From: Glutinoglossum americanum
Lineage: Eukaryota; Ascomycota; Geoglossomycetes; Geoglossales; Geoglossaceae
Reading direction: 5' to 3'
Assembly: GCA_020080175.1 (NCBI GenBank)
Contig: JAGHQL010000276.1
Span: 1 to 20,165 of the forward strand
DNA: 20,165 nucleotides
Positions within the stretch are counted from its first letter, which is position 1; every line of letters starts with the position of its first letter. Positions 5,613 through 20,165 of the stretch are shown piece by piece. A program made the position numbers and the translations under genes. The notes under the pieces were generated by a model that worked only from the letters and a program-made list of their open reading frames with translations, had not been told where the DNA came from and did not search any database.

Positions 5613-6083
5613 GCTTCTCAATATTTACCCTATTCAGATGGCGCTTACTTATACTACATCTCAGATTTGTACTCGACACTGGCAAGCCTACTGCGGCATG
5701 GCAGGAACGGAGATGCAGAACAGATAGGCCGACAAGCACTAGCTGGCATGAAAAAAATAAGAGGGAAAAATCACCCGGATGCCTTAAACACACTGGACCT
5801 CCTCGCAAGGGTGTTGAACCACCTCGGCCAGTACCAGGAAGCTGTGAAGCTGCATCAAAAGTATTTGAAGAGGCTCGGGGGAAAGGCGAACAGGAAAGCT
5901 CTGATTGCAAAATGCCGACTCTGTGCCATATTCAAGAAACTGGGCAACTATAGTGAAGCAAAGAAGGCGAGCGCGGATGTTGTTGAAATGTGCAAGAAAA
6001 TATACGGGAATGACCATAAGGAGACGCGTTGGGCCGTTGGGATGGATACCCATATATCAGAGACGCTTCGAATAGCCGAATGA
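5613..6083 (+). CDS. TPR-repeat protein fragment (3' exon)
   Basis: The frame is open from 5613 to TGA at 6083. It contains tetratricopeptide-like helices: LYSTLASLLRHGRNGDAEQI, then HPDALNTLDLLARVLNHLGQ with YQEAVKLHQKYLKRLG, then ALIAKCRLCAIFKKLG with YSEAKKASADVVEMCKKIYG. The spacing and the G-x-H-P-D-A/T-L-x-T pattern resemble the kinesin-light-chain-like TPRs found at the C-terminus of many fungal STAND/NLR proteins, where the repeats bind partner ligands. Only about three repeats are present and no NB-ARC or NACHT domain is found upstream. There is no good ATG in frame; an acceptor TATTCAG ending at 5637 suggests that this is a 3' exon. It may be a truncated NLR remnant, cut off from its 5' part when the neighbouring element inserted at 4012-5292, or a decayed gene. 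Confidence 0.5.
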   Translation, partial: ASQYLPYSDGAYLYYISDLYSTLASLLRHGRNGDAEQIGRQALAGMKKIRGKNHPDALNTLDLLARVLNHLGQYQEAVKLHQKYLKRLGGKANRKALIAKCRLCAIFKKLGNYSEAKKASADVVEMCKKIYGNDHKETRWAVGMDTHISETLRIAE

Positions 6084-7451: not shown

Positions 7452-7500
7452 ACGTAATCGATCACCATGTGGCCGCTATCACCATGTGGCCGCCCCATTA
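7452..7500 (+). repeat. Left TIR of the pogo element with a 17-bp internal duplication
   Basis: Compared with the right TIR (9256-9287), the left end carries an extra 17 bp: ATCACCATGTGGCCG occurs twice, at 7461-7475 and 7478-7492. The rest matches the right end. Directly inside lies AAAACGCG-A-CGCGTTTT (7501-7517), a short perfect palindrome. Confidence 0.85.
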
Positions 7501-7517
7501 AAAACGCGACGCGTTTT

Positions 7518-9179
7518 ATAACTACTACCACAATAGCTACATCACAACAACAAGAAGCCTTATATAAAGAAGGCAGATTGATTTTAGCCCTTCAAGCCTA
7601 TAAGCTAGGCCAAATTAAATCACTTGAAGTTGCTGCAAAAATATACGATGTGCCTCCAAGAACCGCTAGGCATTGTGCTACTGGTGTTTAACCAAAACGT
7701 AGTTCCTATGCATCAAATCGCCTTCTTACGCCTGTACAGGAAGATAGCCTTAGGCAGTGGGTTCTTTCAATGGATCAACGCGGTATGCTACCAAAAATCG
7801 CGACTGTACGACAGATGACTAGTATTCTAGCTACACAAGGTGCTGGATCAACTACACCTTTACCAATTGGGCAATGCTAGGTATCACAATTTATTAAGCG
7901 CTATGATGATTTACGATCTAAGTATAATCGCAAATACAACTATCAACATGCTCAATGCGAAGATCCTGTGCTTATTTGACGCTGGTTTAAGCATATTGAA
8001 GATACAAAGGTGTAATATGGAATTCTTGATAAGAATATCTGGAATTTCGATGAGACTAGCTGTCAGATGGGAGTTATTACAACCGCAAAAGTCGTTACCG
8101 GAACAGATAGAGTTGGCAGACCTAGAACAGTTCAACCAGGCAATCAGAAATGGGTTATGATAATTGAGACTATTAGTGCTCAAGGAGACACAATTCCACC
8201 ACTTGTTATTTTTGAAGCTGCGATATACCAGGCTGCTTGGTATAAAGACAATATTATACCATATGATTGGTCAATTGGTATTAGCACTACTGGCTGGACA
8301 ACAAATGAGATTGGCTTATATTGATTAACAGAAGTATTCGACAAGTATACAAAGAACCGTACAATTGGCCGTTATCGACTCTTAATTCTGGATGGCCATG
8401 GCAGCCACATTACCCCCGAATTTGACCAGTTTTGCTTAGAGCATCAGATCATTACTCTTTACATGCCTCCTCATTCGTCACATCTATTACAACCTTTAGA
8501 TGTAGGCTGTTTTTCGGTTCTTAAATGGGCCTACGGATGTCTTGTTGAGCAGATGATGGGTTGCGGTATCAACTATATCAATAAATGTAAATTTTTATCT
8601 TTATATCGGCAGGCTAGACAGACAGCGTTACATCGGAATAATATCTAGACAGGGTTTGCAGTTACTGGAATAGTTCCATATAGCCCCAATTGTGTATTAG
8701 CACAGCTACATACAGAATATCAAACACCACCACCACCCCATCCGTAATCACGATCAAGTGCATCTTGGACAGCTGAAACGCCTCATAACATTACTGAGCT
8801 ACAGCAGCAAACAGTCTTAATAAGGCGTTATCTTAAACAGCGCACATATAGTCCACCGAGTCTGACAGAACAAGCTCTTACCCAGCTGGTTAAGGGTTGT
8901 GAAATGGCGATGTCGAGTGCTGTTCTGCTTGCTAGTGAAAATGATAAATTACGGATAGAAAACCAGCGTCAGAAAAAAAAAAGAGCAGCTAGGCATACAT
9001 ATATAGCTAAAGGAGGTATTTTATCAGGAGCAGAAGGACTATCTCGTACTACAATTGCTGAAACCGAGCAAAAGAATGCTCTGGCAGAGGCAGCGGCCAA
9101 GCAATTGGAATGAGCACCACGCAAATGTAGTATGTGTAGTTCTACAGAACACACTGCAAGAACATGCTCACTTCGTTAA
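7518..9179 (+). pseudogene. Inactivated Fot1/pogo transposase (DDD family)
   Basis: A single reading frame spans 1,662 bp (about 553 codons, near the roughly 540 of Fot1) with no frameshift and eight internal stops, at 7689, 7878, 7977, 8013, 8322, 8646, 8745 and 9111. The likely start is ATA at 7518, an ATG changed by one G-to-A. The N-terminus has a psq-type helix-turn-helix (LALQAYKLGQIKSLEVAAKI). A CENP-B-like domain follows (RLLTPVQEDSLRQWVLSMDQ). The catalytic aspartates remain: NFDET (8049), LILDGHGSH (8391) and LLQPLDVGCF (8499). The C-terminus ends in a CCHC knuckle, C-x2-C-x4-H-x4-C, near 9127-9170. Every stop can be explained by a C-to-T or G-to-A change from CAA, CAG, CGA or TGG, which suggests RIP or deamination rather than indel decay. 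Confidence 0.9.
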
Positions 9180-11660: not shown

Positions 11661-13266
11661 ATAATATGCTAGACACAAAGATGTTTTTAGAATAGTGTAG
11701 TATAACCTCGTGTAGATAGAATTGAGTCTATAATGAATCGCCTTAACTAACTACATGATGTGGGCGTACACCCTATATGTGTTGGGGTCGCTTAGCCCAG
11801 CCACCCAAATAGGGGCCACCAGAATTCCGCTGCCCCTATGCCTTGGCACGGGCCGCGTTCCGTGTCGCACCATGAGTGCTACTTCCAACAGATGTAGCTC
11901 CTGAGCAATAAATACACACATAACTAGGAGAGACTAGTTTGTTGCAGAATACTCAGGCACCACCCAGTGGCACCCCTATGGGTTCCTCGGGCCGGCCGAA
12001 AGAAGGCCAAAGCAGCTGCGGGCTAGCCAAAAGGGGCTGCAGAGCACCCGAGCATTCATATAGCTTCATGTCACGTAGCTAGCATTTAGGTAGTTGCAAG
12101 CAATTAATATATTAACCCCCATCCATTGTTTACATAGTCTATATAATTCTAGCTACTATTTCCATGTATCGAGCATAACCGCCAACATCATCCATTGCGG
12201 GGAGGCTAGGGTGCTGCAGATATATCTTTGTGACCTTATTTACTACTGCTCAAAACTCCCTGCCAGTCTCTATCGTGCCAGTGGATCTACTACTAGCGCC
12301 AGAGGGTGTAGCTTCGTGGCTGCCTATCGTATGTCGTATTGCTTAGTAAAGGTCACGTCGGTGAAACGAGAGCCTGCCGATTAAATAGCCCCTGAAAAAC
12401 GCATGCAACTCAGCCCTGACATCTGCCATGCAGGCGTCAATGCACTGTCATGCGTATGCACATAATACCTCCGATAGCCACTGCCGGACCGGTAGAACTC
12501 ATTGAATTGATCTTTGCTCGCGTATAGTGTGTCTGATAGATTAGAAAGTATATTGCTAAGGGGTTAGGATTTGTAAGTAACGTTACTTTGGAGAATGGCG
12601 AGAATACTACTCCATTCCAATACCTTACAAGTATCCTGTACCTGGGGCATCCCATCACCCTGTTAGATGATGTCTGCATTACCTCAAGGAGAGAGGCGAA
12701 TCTATGTCATTCAGATAGAACCCTGAGACGCTGGATCCTTAGATATTTGTATCCTGCTCGGTCAAAGCGCTTGCCTGCCATTCGAGCGCAGCTGAAAGAC
12801 GATTCTGTCATGCCCTCTGTGCTTTGTGCTTTGTTACCATACGTAACCGGTTAACGGTGGTTGTAGCTAGTGAACGACCCATCAGACCATTCGCAAAATG
12901 CGACGAAGCCACTGCTCCCGAAATCGCCTTACGTCTACTGGAAGGAGTAGATCCATGACTGATTAAATACGTAACGATCGTCTAGAACTGACCTGTATGG
13001 GGACTCTACATGCATCATCAGTTTCATTTAGTGTTGTGAGTTGCTAAAATAAACCCCCCTGACCATGCATTTTCCCGCAACTCGCCTGATGTAGAAATCT
13101 GTCTGCATTCTCAACACCCTTGTAGGTAATCGTGTGAACCCCATAGACGCTGGGACATCGGCAAGGGTGTAGTTACCGACGGAAATTTCTGAAGCCTCGC
13201 CTTTCTGCTTCCATTGCAGTTTCTGCCGGAGCCCTGGCGGAGAACCAGTGGCCCGAAACTATTCCC
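11661..13266. other. Gene-poor region
   Basis: No gene is supported. A frame at 12588-12854 contains SDRTLRRWILRYLYPARSKR and reads somewhat like a helix-turn-helix protein, but it has no ATG in a plausible place, no identifiable family and no splice partner. The segment 11790-12060 is rich in GGGGCC/GGCCGGCC-like words, as in the neighbouring elements, so it may be more transposon debris. The right end is the promoter region of the microexon gene. Confidence 0.4.
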
Positions 13267-13274
13267 TATAAAAA
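13267..13274 (+). promoter_or_regulatory. TATA box candidate for the microexon gene
   Basis: CCCTATAAAAAGCA lies about 180 bp before the ATG at 13448. A start near 13300 gives a leader of about 150 nt. A possible leader intron is 13383-13434 (52 bp; GTGAGC donor, TCTAACTAAATTAACATTCT branch region, CTGCAG acceptor), which would bring the cap closer to the ATG. Confidence 0.45.
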
Positions 13275-13447
13275 GCAGTATAGAAAGCTGCAATCACCCC
13301 TTCGACAGACTTCGTCACCGTCCTGAACGCCAGACAATCCAATCGATTATATTCATTCGCATAGAGCAAGATAAGCCCAAGAGTGAGCGGCCCCTTGTAT
13401 CGGATGAATCTAACTAAATTAACATTCTCTGCAGAGCCACCTGCAAT

Positions 13448-14710
13448 ATGAAGCCGGTTCTACTTGTTCTCGCAACCTTATTTACTTTAGCGCTCTCTCT
13501 TCCAACCAGCAGCGAAAATTCCAACTTGGCCGGGGAAGGTTGTGTGAGTTCAGAACCGGACTTACTGATAACTGATGGTACTAGTTTGGCTAATTCGTGA
13601 CTTTGTGATTTGGTAATAGGATGTAAGTAGGCTTGACTTGTTAATGATAGATAATACAAATTTGGCTAATTCATGAACTCGTCGATTCGAAACAGCCGGT
13701 AAGTCAAGCACTTGGCTTCCTGATGACTGGTGATGCCAGTTTAACTGATTTGTAAACTCCACGATTTGAAAATAGGAAGTAAGTCAATAGCTCAACTCTC
13801 TGATGATAGATGATACAAGCTTGGCTAATTTATGAAAACAGTGTGTAAGTTAAGCACTTGACTTGCTGATGACTGATAACGTCGGTTCGACTAATTCATG
13901 GACTCGTCGGGTTGAAAACAGTTGGTAAGTCGAGCACTTGACTTACTGATGGTTGGCAATGCAAGTTTGACTAATTTATGGACCCGCTGGTTTGAAAACA
14001 GTTCGTAAGTCAAACACCTGATTTGCCGATGACTGATAATGCCAGTTTGACTAATTCATGGACCCACCGGTTTGAAAACAGTTGGTACGTCAAACGCTCA
14101 ACTTGCTAATGACCGATGATACAAGTTTGGCTAATTCGTGAACTTGTTGATTTGAAAACAGACCGTAAGTCAAGCACTTAACTTGCTAATGACTGAGGAT
14201 GCCAATTCAGCTAATTCGTGACTATGTGATTTTGATAACAGGATGTAAGTCAAGCATTTGACTTACTGATGACTGACGCCAGTTTGACTAATTCGTGGAC
14301 TCATTGGTTTGGAAACAGAATGTAAGTTAACTTGCTGATGACTGAGGATGCCAGTTTGACTAATTCGTGGACTCGCCGATTTGGAAATAGGGGGTAAGTC
14401 AAGCACACGACTCTGATGACCGAGTACAAGTTTGGCTAATTCGTGGGCTCGTCGGTTTAAAAATAGGCTGTGAGTTAAGCACCTTCCCTGATAACCGATG
14501 ATACAAGTTTGGCTAATTTGTGAACTTTGTCGGGTTAAAAACAGTGTGTGAGTTGAGACTTGACCTGCTGATGACTAGTGATGGCAGCTTGGCTAATTCG
14601 TAAACTCATTGGCTTGAAAATAGCACGTAAGCCAAGCACCTGACTTGCTGATAACTTAGTAGTGCTAGCTTGACTAATTTGCGGATTTGTCGGTTTGGAA
14701 ACAGTGTTAA
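13448..14710 (+). CDS. Secreted Cys-rich peptide gene with fourteen 3-nt microexons (15 introns)
   Basis: Exon 1 (13448-13543, 32 codons) encodes a signal peptide, MKPVLLVLATLFTLALSLPT, then a polar stretch ending EGC. Fifteen introns follow: 13544-13619, 13623-13695, 13699-13775, 13779-13841, 13845-13921, 13925-14001, 14005-14081, 14085-14161, 14165-14241, 14245-14318, 14322-14390, 14394-14466, 14470-14544, 14548-14623 and 14627-14704. Donors are GTAAGT (10), GTGAGT (3), GTACGT and GTAAGC; acceptors are CAG (10) or TAG (5); 14 carry CTAAT and one CTGAT. The triplets between them are GAT, CCG, GAA, TGT, TTG, TTC, TTG, ACC, GAT, AAT, GGG, GCT, TGT and CAC, then TGT TAA. The product is 47 residues with tail GCDPECLFLTDNGACHC, cysteines C-x3-C-x8-C-x-C, probably two disulfides. 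Cleavage is likely near residues 18-22. Retaining intron 1 gives a stop within it. The peptide family is not recognised; splicing is predicted, not observed. Confidence 0.75.
13544..14704 (+). repeat. Tandem array of 15 related intron units (about 80-bp period)
   Basis: Fifteen units of 63-78 bp (seven of them 76-77 bp) share one consensus: GTAAGTCAAGCACTTGACTT, GCTGATGACTGAT, GCCAGTTTGACTAATTCGTG, GACTCGTCGGTTTGAAAACA and G. Each unit is followed by exactly three bases before the next begins. Lengths differ by small indels inside the units, yet the 3-nt spacers never change length. A plain satellite would not protect a 3-base spacer or keep GT and AG invariant in all copies. This supports duplication of an intron-plus-triplet cassette under splicing constraint. 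Confidence 0.9.
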
Positions 14711-15359
14711 AATTGCCTCACAGCAGTGGGGGACGAGACTACCGAGATGCGTATATGGATTGGTCTGCCAGCCTGTTGGTAGAGAATCGTTTTCAATAGG
14801 ATGTTGATCTGGGGACTTGCGTTTGGTGCCGTATTACAAGACTCTCATCCCATCGTCAATTAGAGGAAGAGAGTTGTAAATGATCTTGATCTATCAGTGC
14901 ATACCACATCTACGATTGACTGATTGAGTACGTGCTTAATCGTGGTGTGTCCTAAATAGTCAATCACTCAATACGACTATCTCCTTACTCAGACGTAGGC
15001 ATCCGTTTCTATTGTTCGATGATGACAGCGTTCCTTTCAAATTCAAGTTGGATTGGTGCAAGAGCCTTCAGGACGTTCTTTTGTTAGTGACTAGAGTAGC
15101 AAGATGAGGCATGATAACTGAGAGTCTTTGGCTCTACAGTTGAGCAACAAAGGTTTATACGGTGTGAAAACATATGTTGTAGGTTATGCTCGCGCTTGCG
15201 GAATGGTTGCAGATATGACTATAGCAATAGTGTATACAAGGAACTTTATTGAATAGAAGAACCTGCTCCAATTGCTTGCTACTTCGAGGCACACCCTCGC
15301 AGCTATGTAGAATACTAGCTAACTTATACGGTAAAGACCGTGGGCAACTCAGCCGCGAA

Positions 15360-16812: not shown

Positions 16813-19800
16813 ATGGATACGCCAATCGCGCCGGTGGGACTGACCCTCTTGAGTGAGCCAAAAGACGCGGTGGTTGAGTATGTCTCAAAACCCCAAAGCT
16901 CGCCAGTCCATTAAATTTATTTGGTGGGAACTGACCTAAATCAGTATAGTATTCATCCACGGTCTTCAAGGACACCCGTACAAGACTTGGACCTCGAAGC
17001 AGGCTCCAGCTCTACCAAAAACCCCTAAAAGAGACAAAACTCGAGCGCTTAGTCCCTTTCGCTTAATTTCGAAGTACATAGGGACAAAGTCTAGGTCTGT
17101 TAGGGAGGAGGCCTTAGACAATATCCATGAAGAGAGAAACCAGGGAGCGGAGGCGAAAAACGTCTTTTGGCCAAGAGACCTGCTCAAGGAGGACTTTCCC
17201 ATGGCTAGGATAATGACTTTCGGATACAATACTAGTATCACGCAAGTTTACGAAGCAGCGAATCAAGGCAATATCTTCTCCCATGCAAGGGATCTGCTGT
17301 ACGGGTTAGAGGCAAAGAGGAGGCAATCACCGAACCGAGACCTCGTCTTCATTGCGCATTCGCTTGGCGGGATATTGGTCAAGGAAGTCCTTCGGCGCTC
17401 TGAAGTCGATCCGGACCGAAAGATCGCCAAAATCTTCGGGTCAACTACTGGAGTATTCTTCTTCGGCACTCCCCATAGAGGCAGCAGGGACTGGGCCTCA
17501 TTTGGAGAAGGTGTCGCCGCCGTTGCAGGCCGTATATTGGGCGTGGGCGTAAATACTCAGGTCATCCATGCTCTGTTGCCTTCTGGCCCTGAACTTGAGA
17601 TCTGTCGGGAATCATTCGCAGCCCAATGGGTAAAACGTGGGGATAACCTTACTGTAAGGACTTTCCAGGAGTCAAAGGGCGTTACGGGCACCCAATGGGG
17701 AGGGTTTAATCAGCTGGTACTGCAGTGTCTCACCTCGAGTTTCGCAGCTAACAGTCTAATAGATTGTGCCTCCTGACTCCTCTACCTTAGATCATCCTGG
17801 CCAGCGCGCTCGGACGATAGACGCGGACCATATGGGAATGGTCAAATTTAGCGGGAAAAATGATAAAGCGTATGAGATGGTGAAGGAGGATATCGAGGAA
17901 CTAGTTATTAGGGCGGGAGAAGCGGGGTACAATCTTGTATCCGGTATGTAGTTTAGCGCTCCTAAAGCCGCTGATTGTCTAATTATTAAAAGATCAACCA
18001 AAAGAGCAGAAGGAAGTAGGATGGAGTGAAAAGGAATGCGAATGCCAACAACTACTCCGAACTTCGGACTATGAAAGCTACAAAGATAGAAACCCCGATC
18101 GAGTTGAAAAGACTTGTCAGTGGTTTCTGGAGCACTCTAATTTCCAAACATGGTATCGGAGCAACACATCAAGTCTACTTTGGGTATCGGCGGATCCCGG
18201 CTGCGGTAAATCAGTTCTGTCTAAATCCCTAGTAGAGAAGGAGCTAAAAAGCACCGAGTCACGCGCTACTTGTTACTTCTTCTTCAAAGATGATGACATC
18301 AAACAGAAAAGCGTAACCCACGCGCTCTCTGCTCTATTACATCAATTGTTCTCACAGAAGAAGTTCCTTATCCAGCACGCTATCCCGGATTATGAAAGTG
18401 AAGGAGAGCGATTACCCACATTGTTTCATAAACAATGGACGGTCCTTACCAAGGCCGCGACCGATCCCAAAGCTGGTGAGGTAATTTGTATTTTAGATGC
18501 TCTCGACGAATGCGAAGAATCTGGTCGATACGATATTATTAAAGCCCTCAGTGCTTTCTACAAGAAAGCCAACAACACTGAAGGAAATCCGTCTAGGTTT
18601 AAATTCCTAGCCACTAGCCGCCCTTACCTTGATATTGAGCGGCGGTTTACAGAGCTGACGCACGACATGCCTAGTGTGCATCTACAAGGCGAAAAAGAAT
18701 CCAAAGCGATCAGCAAGGAGATTAACTTTGTTATTCAATTCGAAGTGCAAAAGAAAATTGGATTGGAGCTAAATCTTAACGACTCGGAAAAATCCTTTCT
18801 AGAACGTGAGCTTTCGAGCATGCCTCATCGAACCTACCTGTGGCTAAAACTCATCCTTGAAGTGATCCGCGGCCGAACGAGTGTTACCCGGATGAGAATA
18901 CAAGAGATCATCTCTAACTTACCTACTACGGTGGAGACGGCATACGAGGCGATCCTTGAGAAAAGCTCGGACAGGAGGCTTGCGCGAAAACTTCTCTGCA
19001 TTGTCGTCGCAGCAGTCAGGCCACTCACGCTGAAGGAAATGAATATTGCACTTGCTATTGAAGATCACCATAGATCCTCCAAAGATCTCGACCTCGAGGA
19101 CGAGATAAGATTCGAAAGCACCGTCCGACATCTCTGCGGACTCTTTATTAGCGTTATAGATCAAAAGGTCTATTTAATTCACCAGACAGCAAAAGAGTTT
19201 CTCCTCGCGAAACCCGAAATGTGTAGTGGAGTATGGAAATATTCCATTGAGCCGGCCGTGTCAGAGCTTCTTGTCGCGAAGACATGCATTACCTATCTCC
19301 TCTTTGCTGATTTCAGTGGTGATTTGGATATAGGAGAGAAGCCACGGGCCGAAAATGAATCTAAAGTCAAACATTACACAGATAAACACCATTACTTAGG
19401 TTATGCCGCAACTCAATGGCCTATCCACTACCAAAAGGTGCAGGCAAGAGCAGAGTACGGAATGCTGCAATCGATTCTCGATATCTGTGACCCTCAAAGC
19501 CGGAGATTCCGAAATTGGTTCTACGTATACTGGGCTCTAGTTCATCGCTACGAGTTATCCCCTTGGTTCATAAGTAGTATAACGGTAGTGTCATATTTTG
19601 GGCATGAAGCCGTGGCCAAGCCGCTGCTGGCGACGGAGGAAGTCGACGTGAACTCCGAGGACTCCAACTATGGACGGACGCCACTATCATGGGCGGCAGG
19701 GGGAGGGCACGAGGCGATGGTCAAGCTGCTGCTGGCGACGGAGGAAGTCGACGTGGACTCCAAGGACGGCAGGTATGGACAGACGCCGCTATCATGGGCG

Positions 19801-20165
19801 GCAGGGGGAGGGCATGAGGCGGTGGTCAAGCTGCTGCTGGCGACGGAGAAAGTCGACGTGGACTCCAAGGACAGGTATGGACAGACGCCGCTGTCATGGG
19901 CGGCAAGGGGAGGGCACGAGGCGGTGGTCAAGCTGCTGCTGGCGACGGAGAAAGTCGACGTGGACTCCAAGGACAGGTATGGACAGACGCCGCTGTCATG
20001 GGCGGCAAGGGGAGGGCACGAGGCGGTGGTCAAGCTGCTGCTGGCGACGGAGAAAGTCGACGTGGACTCCAAGGACAGGTATGGACAGACGCCGCTGTCA
20101 TGGGCGGCAAGGGGAGGGCACGAGGCGGTGGTCAAGCTGCTGCTGGCGACGGAGAAAGTCGACGT
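16813..20165 (+). CDS. Hydrolase-NACHT-ankyrin NLR-like protein (5' complete, 3' off window)
   Basis: Exons are 16813-16877, 16945-17716, 17763-17943 and 17993 onward; introns are 67, 46 and 49 bp. ATG 16813 is the first in frame after a stop at 16726. At least 1,063 codons are uninterrupted. Residues about 20-310 form an alpha/beta-hydrolase (PGAP1/DUF676-like): DIVFIHGLQGHPYKTW, nucleophile Ser161 in IAHSLGG, FFGTPHRGS, and likely catalytic His302 in DADHMGM. A linker motif LRTSDYE...RNPDRVEKTCQWFL leads into NACHT: Walker A ADPGCGKS (406-413), Walker B VICILDALDEC (503-513), sensor TSRPY (547-551). A winged-helix-like region (LTLKEMNIALAI, IHQTAKEFLL) precedes ankyrin repeats from about residue 875. 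Such fungal STAND proteins oligomerise on ligand binding and trigger their N-terminal domain, often in non-self recognition. Joining these exons removes all stops, so the gene looks intact. Ligand and hydrolase substrate are unknown. Confidence 0.9.
16878..16944 (+). other. Intron 1 of the NLR-like gene
   Basis: GTATGT donor; CTGAC branch site followed by TAAATCAG. Removal joins GA to T and restores VVDIVFIHGLQGHP, the conserved first strand of the hydrolase domain. In-frame TAA at 16937 otherwise blocks the frame. Confidence 0.85.
17944..17992 (+). other. Intron 3 of the NLR-like gene
   Basis: GTATGT donor, CTAATTATT region and AAAG acceptor. It joins the hydrolase domain (ending GYNLVS) to the NACHT linker (D-QPKEQKEVGWSEKEC) in one continuous frame. 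Intron 2 (17717-17762, GTACTG...CTAAC...TAG) similarly restores FNQL-IVPPDSSTLDHP. Confidence 0.8.
19609..20165 (+). repeat. Near-identical ankyrin-repeat array, 102-bp period
   Basis: Repeat units start at 19609, 19714, 19819, 19921, 20023 and 20125 (partial). The first two are 105 bp and diverged; units 19819, 19921 and 20023 are 102 bp and base-for-base identical, and the partial last one matches too. Each codes for 34 residues of the form TPLSWAARGGHEAVVKLLLA then TEKVDVDSKDRYGQ. Composition is GC-rich relative to the NACHT part. Confidence 0.95.

Follow-up and report, generated by a model that had tools for sequence, protein, structure and literature searches.

A predicted run of fourteen 3-nt exons in a putative secreted-peptide gene of Glutinoglossum americanum

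The microexon genes (MEGs) of schistosomes encode secreted products and have a first exon for the signal peptide followed by many short, symmetrical exons, the skipping of which is frame-neutral. Most MEG exons are longer than 3 nt, and their lengths vary. Fungal introner-like elements are families of near-identical introns dispersed over many genes. The HNWD-type NLRs of Podospora have near-identical repeats that differ at a few hypervariable codons, and selection together with recombination diversifies them. The bicycle genes of aphids contain many small exons, each longer than one codon. These putative gall effectors are described as fast-evolving secreted proteins recognised by gene structure (PMC9168663). 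For filamentous fungi, a regulated microexon is described in the Xlr2 gene of Trichoderma virens (PMC11121469). In the NACHT-ANK/NLR (nank) genes of Tuber melanosporum, 3-bp or codon-sized alternatively spliced exons are mentioned as ‘tens’, ‘dozens’ or ‘multiple’ (PMC3689799, PMC4986451, PMC9815663 and PMC10197012, citing Iotti et al. 2012). A preliminary description of the locus presented here held that no fungal gene with a run of one codon per exon was known; as cited in those publications, the Tuber melanosporum nank genes of Iotti et al. (2012) precede it.

The window analyzed, a stretch of 20,165 nt, corresponds to positions 1-20165 of contig C197 within the 25.8-Mb Glutinoglossum americanum assembly (317 contigs), which served as the genome searched. 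On the plus strand a reading frame starts at the ATG at 13448. A TATA-box-like sequence, TATAAAAA, with a presumed promoter role is located on the same strand at 13267-13274, starting 181 bp upstream of the ATG, and its exact sequence occurs once in the window when both strands are counted. Exon 1 (MKPVLLVLATLFTLALSLPTSSENSNLAGEGC) spans 13448-13543, contains 32 codons and ends with GGT TGT in phase 0. Judged by eye, its leader consists of Lys-Pro and then a 15-residue, mostly hydrophobic stretch, and was taken by inspection to be a signal peptide.

Exon 1 is followed at 13544-14704 (plus strand) by an array of 15 homologous GT-AG introns with 3-nt exons in between. Introns 1 to 5 are located at 13544-13619, 13623-13695, 13699-13775, 13779-13841 and 13845-13921 (76, 73, 77, 63 and 77 nt), introns 6 to 10 at 13925-14001, 14005-14081, 14085-14161, 14165-14241 and 14245-14318 (77, 77, 77, 77 and 74 nt), and introns 11 to 15 at 14322-14390, 14394-14466, 14470-14544, 14548-14623 and 14627-14704 (69, 73, 75, 76 and 78 nt), giving a range of 63-78 nt. 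The exons enclosed by them, all on the plus strand, are GAT (Asp, 13620-13622), CCG (Pro, 13696-13698), GAA (Glu, 13776-13778), TGT (Cys, 13842-13844), TTG (Leu, 13922-13924), TTC (Phe, 14002-14004), TTG (Leu, 14082-14084), ACC (Thr, 14162-14164), GAT (Asp, 14242-14244), AAT (Asn, 14319-14321), GGG (Gly, 14391-14393), GCT (Ala, 14467-14469), TGT (Cys, 14545-14547) and CAC (His, 14624-14626). The coding part of the terminal exon is TGT TAA (Cys and stop) at 14705-14710, on the same strand. By sequence the locus is thus an array of codon-sized microexons, with 14 successive 3-nt exons and 15 GT-AG introns.

The predicted spliced product is 47 aa long with the tail GCDPECLFLTDNGACHC, the whole precursor being MKPVLLVLATLFTLALSLPTSSENSNLAGEGCDPECLFLTDNGACHC. 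Four Cys lie within its final 16 residues, spaced C-x3-C-x8-C-x1-C, and the mature peptide left after removal of the leader would be about 28 residues long and carry four Cys. A chain this short with four Cys, an even number, is in keeping with a small secreted cysteine-rich protein. The coordinates, counts and peptide of the preliminary description (15 units, 3-base spacing, TGT TAA, 47 aa) were all recovered on re-derivation.

Splice signals are regular across the array. All 15 introns start with GT and all 15 end with AG, and their first six bases are GTAAGT in 10, GTGAGT in three, and GTACGT and GTAAGC in one each. The last CTRAY adenine is positioned 27-29 nt before the intron end in 14 of the 15, and 14 nt before it in intron 4. 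By eye, the pyrimidine tract is scant at the 3' ends. Twelve intron columns of the alignment are invariant, eight of which fall in the 5' site, the branch site CT(A/G)AT or the 3' site; with nine columns marked by the analyst as splice signal at these three sites, the hypergeometric probability of such an overlap is 1.6e-7. A predicted hairpin with the consensus inverted repeat GTAAGTCAAG..CTTGACTTGC covers the 5' splice site in introns 1, 5, 6, 7 and 10 (for example at 13925-13946), and could possibly act as a regulator of inclusion.

The 15 units form a single repeat family, with a mean pairwise intron identity of 0.731, so the fixed 3-base spacing does not represent 15 independent coincidences and counts only once. 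The mean pairwise identity of the triplets is 0.251 by comparison, which is about the random level. Each intron carries between 1 and 16 gaps in the alignment, whereas exon length is constant at 3. The three triplet columns have entropies of 1.83, 1.97 and 1.75 bits, against a maximum of 1.61 among intron columns, of which 77 of the 79 aligned were scored; if columns are exchangeable, the triplet columns would rank highest among all 80 with a probability of approximately 1.2e-5. Intron identity is flat across all lags (0.67-0.76) and shows no steady fall with array distance. The first unit begins inside the open frame of the leader in phase 0, and TAA follows one codon past the last unit, yet this match of frame is only mild evidence because the exon boundaries had been defined from those of the units. 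That every triplet is a sense codon, as initially pointed out, is true but weak evidence alone, given that 40% of triplet column shuffles are stop-free and 60% contain a stop. The alignments behind the statistics given here and below for the different arrays hold 12-25 repeat units each.

Genome searches were carried out with patterns covering introns of 56-86 nt and some 5' sites. The pattern of two GTAAGT sites around AG-NNN gave 45 matches genome-wide, compared with 14 for a reversed-pattern control. Four arrays account for 44 of these matches, with 8 in the window, 3 in contig C178, 11 in C290 and 22 in C311, while the remaining match stands singly in C291. When the spacing was changed to 4 nt or 6 nt, there were 4 and 3 matches genome-wide, respectively, against 10 in the reversed control in both cases. 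A stricter pattern led by ACAG matched six times, every time in the window, with no control match, and one led by ATAG matched twice in the window and once in C178, three matches in all against one in the control. Patterns with GTGAGT as the 5' site gave 9 matches versus 8 in the control, one of the 9 being in the window array, and those with GTATGT gave 3 versus 8. Chains of exons of 1-30 nt were also scanned for in 233,655 bases, comprising the window, a 200-kb sample and pieces of C178. The longest chain is the one in the window, with 14 exons of 3 nt, and the next-longest chains have a length of three and are found in C178 (3 nt) and at places in L030 and L018 at 12, 20, 24 and 28 nt. Used as a DNA query, one C311 unit gave 26 matches, none of them outside C311, and one C178 unit matched itself alone; no further array came to light.

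Two of the arrays are found in receptor-type genes. The C311 array has 26 triplets (L037:1236-3315), and the C290 array has 15 triplets (L036) with a 10-N assembly gap inside. Both arrays are preceded on the same strand by patatin-like and NPHP3_N/NACHT matches (L038 and L039), although the NACHT model itself scores above cut-off for C290 only. Ankyrin repeats flank the C311 array according to Pfam, and those flanking C290 were identified by eye. With its introns removed, C311 reads ...GANVNYHYIPI, then EFVVEVDFFGALFVVWRRRVVLALFR (26 codons), then KPLSRAAEAGHEAVVRLL, and C290 reads ...GAKVNYYYVPN, then LEPLYEEEPLLLSNR (15 codons), then TPLLRAAEKGHETVARLL. Ankyrin repeats are joined in frame in either case, and the stretch encoded by the microexons would form a long loop between them. 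Without splicing, the C311 frame runs into a stop inside the first intron. Skipping of microexons would preserve the frame in C290 and C311 as it would in the window. Five protein relatives of the C290 receptor were compared. In P0003, P0006 and P0008 the sequence continues beyond the corresponding exon end as VS... and terminates after a further 10, 8 and 22 residues, which indicates that a 5' splice site at this exon end recurs in relatives; P0004 and P0009 stop earlier. From what the cited publications say of the nank genes of Tuber, the receptor genes carrying the C290 and C311 arrays are probably of the same kind, in a different class of Ascomycota.

The array in C178 (L035:640-1200, minus strand) consists of intron-like units of about 65 nt at 3-nt spacing, with ankyrin coding sequence downstream, and by eye several of its splice sites are degraded. 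It is possibly a decaying relative or copy of the C290 and C311 arrays. Intron profiles of C290, C311 and C178 match one another, with best E values from 6.5e-8 to 8e-3, the C178 profile having been built from six units chosen by text pattern, two of them cut short. The profile of the window introns scores the C290, C311 and C178 introns no better than shuffles. On intron sequence, the window array would therefore be either of separate origin or too diverged to tell.

Similar comparisons of codons and introns were made in the receptor arrays, with the C290 column test using 12 of 15 units (the leader intron and two units beside the assembly gap were left out) and the C311 test using 25 of 26; C178 was not counted in the column and codon tests. 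In C311 the introns have a mean identity of 0.89 and the triplets 0.45. The entropies of codon positions 1, 2 and 3 are 1.78, 1.73 and 0.98 bits in C290 and 1.46, 1.52 and 0.86 bits in C311, and 3 of 70 intron columns in C290 and 4 of 81 in C311 are as variable as position 3 or more so, which means that position 3 does not stand out from the most variable intron columns and counts against selection on the triplets. Higher variability at positions 1 and 2 than at position 3 is expected of translated codons under favoured amino-acid change, and is supportive, not conclusive. The low variability of position 3 in the receptor arrays is not shared by the window, where this position (1.75 bits) is as variable as the other two. 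None of the 26 triplets of C311 starts with A, and all of them end in G or T; so narrow a choice of codons resembles the outcome of stepwise change from a small number of founders.

Among the 15 triplets of the window there are 11 different codons, each for a different amino acid, with no synonymous variants. Column shuffles, which ignore descent, contained equally few synonymous variants at a frequency of 0.055 for the window (15 triplets), 0.32 for C290 (13 of 15) and 0.012 for C311 (26 of 26). The deficit is borderline for the window by itself, and Fisher combination of the three tests gives 0.0095; with so few units, this too is supportive of selection for amino-acid change, not conclusive. 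Triplet similarity showed no correlation with intron similarity in the window, C290 or C311, where Mantel r was 0.064, 0.133 and 0.014 and permutations reached values as high in 512, 82 and 881 of 2000, respectively.

Taken together, we consider it likely that the window contains a protein-coding gene for a small, probably secreted, Cys-bearing peptide in which 14 residues are each supplied by a 3-nt exon. The preliminary description spoke of a real, functional extreme microexon gene. Anatomy, column statistics and the sister arrays uphold this as regards the gene, while ‘functional’ goes further than these observations, and we would say that the gene is probably real and functional. Its 15 homologous introns would be removed by the ordinary spliceosome through intron definition, each event joining one more codon to an upstream exon that lengthens step by step, and strong 5' sites within the introns, 10 of the 15 reading GTAAGT, may offset the absent exonic context. 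The array could have grown via duplication of units of intron plus codon. Since all internal exons are 3 nt long and in phase 0, skipping as well as gain or loss of units is frame-neutral; change of a triplet, or gain or loss of a unit, would alter, add or remove exactly one residue and leave the frame intact. The triplets may have been separated by selection for amino-acid change while the introns remained similar. Most likely, the gene yields a secreted peptide that evolves rapidly and is used against other organisms or strains, or towards them. Several points count against this account. The serial splicing of 3-nt exons is mechanistically demanding, and the tail is altered in every one of the 15 models in which a single intron is retained. 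The pyrimidine tract at the intron 3' ends is scant, the synonymous deficit of the window is borderline and its position 3 is not of low variability, and unit duplication alone predicts that triplet similarity should track intron similarity, which is not seen.

A reading that is compatible with the above and goes one step further is that the array serves as a combinatorial generator, in which introns that are alike and in phase 0 allow many pairings of 5' and 3' sites and yield a mixture of in-frame peptides with different codon subsets, in principle up to 2^14 ordered subsets. Skipping of any of the internal exons, all of 3 nt and in phase 0, retains both the frame and the final Cys-stop, the flat identity of introns over lags (0.67-0.76) is in agreement with this, and alternative splicing of codon-sized exons is reported for the Tuber NACHT-ANK genes in the publications cited above. 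However, the four Cys in the full-length tail suggest one preferred product, and near-uniform strong 5' sites would favour complete inclusion. We view this reading as possible but less likely than not. Also rather unlikely, and put forward tentatively as a pair, are the suggestions that the locus is a frame-safe peptide library, varied one residue at a time by codon-exon subsets together with unit and triplet change, and that peptides and, with another intron family, NLR-type receptors of the same fungus are both diversified codon by codon via splicing.

Alternatively, the array may be a minisatellite with an intron-like unit of 80 bp that happens to follow a small secreted-protein ORF, the triplets being the most mutable bases of the unit and the real product being either a read-through protein of 50 residues or a transcript from which the array is skipped. 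The array is in fact a tandem repeat (TRF period 80, 11.1 copies), the 3-base spacing could be inherited with the unit, and read-through of intron 1 gives a 50-residue protein ending ...VSSEPDLLITDGTSLANS. Still, the invariant columns cluster in the splice and branch signals, with the variable triplet placed directly between an invariant AG and an invariant GT, and the 3-nt layout recurs in receptor-type genes elsewhere in this genome, between introns that have no detectable relation to those of the window and that, once removed, leave ankyrin repeats joined in frame. A minisatellite is for these reasons improbable.

A further alternative is that a mobile, introner-like intron was inserted repeatedly after each codon of an older, ordinary peptide gene. 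The introns of the array form one family, their similarity does not fall over array distance, and the triplets have random-level identity, as in older coding sequence, and do not track the introns in similarity. Against this, phase-0 insertion after 15 successive codons would be far less likely than unit duplication, and the unit was matched nowhere else in the genome in DNA searches, which is unlike introner families; we regard such an origin as distinctly improbable. In these searches, with very common words skipped, the 1263-bp region and one 85-bp unit matched this locus only, and a dispersed introner family was rejected as a candidate for that reason. A cluster of structured RNAs instead of introns, for example C/D-box snoRNA-like with TGATGA-like motifs, would accord with the recurrent CTGATGAC motif and the 5'-end hairpin folds of some units, but is extremely improbable given zero Rfam matches up to E=1 on both strands of 13200-15000, folding z-scores of -1.0 to +0.7 in the five of 15 units tested, and hairpin arms that pair about as well when swapped between units (mean 4.28 of 6 bases) as when native (4.47; 2.37 when shuffled), so that covariation between units was not found.

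Returning to the peptide gene, DNA and protein searches found no second copy of exon 1 elsewhere in the genome, and no relative of exon 1 or of the spliced peptide was found in the protein collection searched. NACHT and ankyrin parts were absent around the window array in tblastn searches with C311 ankyrin and C290 NACHT segments, which matched the window only at 18025-18660 and 19579-20154, belonging to a separate receptor gene. The peptide gene shows none of the defining domains of nank genes (NACHT and ankyrin), nor a patatin part. As to the surroundings, the NPHP3_N (NACHT-like)-ankyrin receptor gene is located at 16940-20165 on the plus strand and runs off the window end; it contains 102-bp ankyrin repeats with a 95% match, in the same window as the peptide gene. 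Also on the plus strand are a broken DDE transposase at 7458-8648, with Pfam DDE_1 at 8325-8645 and an in-frame stop just ahead, and a TPR_12 tetratricopeptide-repeat fragment at 5613-6083 for which a full gene was not obvious.

What is new here is the 3-nt exon layout in a putative secreted Cys-bearing peptide gene, with a different intron family and in another fungal class. No report of 3-nt exon arrays, whether from a gene for a secreted peptide or from Geoglossomycetes, was found in the literature searched, which included few subscription papers. In the publications found, codon-sized arrays are mentioned for one receptor family in one truffle, to which another fungal class can now be added. 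With receptor-type genes and a peptide gene with unrelated introns both using it, the layout looks like a recurrent solution. The coding unit is itself unusual in that the conserved repeat is the intron and the sole coding part is one replaceable codon, which bears on minimum exon size and on how the spliceosome orders tiny exons. Such genes would easily be missed by annotation and by RNA mappers, and hidden secreted peptides are predicted in other genomes, where they could be found via chains of AG-NNN-GTRAGT.

Like the Tuber nank genes, the window gene belongs to a filamentous ascomycete and has 3-nt exons in a long series, which in nank genes is said by the citing publications to diversify the recognition part. 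It differs in being a gene for a small, putatively secreted, Cys-bearing peptide that shows no NACHT, patatin or ankyrin part, in having introns not detectably related to those of the C290 and C311 receptors, and in its host, which belongs to Geoglossomycetes whereas Tuber belongs to Pezizomycetes. The Xlr2 gene, as described, has a single microexon in a transcription-factor gene, while the window has an array. Bicycle genes are animal genes, whereas this one is fungal and its exons are one codon long. With introner-like elements the window has an intron family in common, yet its unit was found only in this array. The unit of HNWD repeats is protein-coding, whereas in the window the conserved repeat is the intron and only the variable codon is coding. 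Schistosome MEGs resemble the window gene in having a leader exon and then many symmetrical microexons, a likeness of layout only, with no common descent claimed; the window gene differs from them in that 14 successive exons are exactly 3 nt long and the introns between them are mutually homologous.
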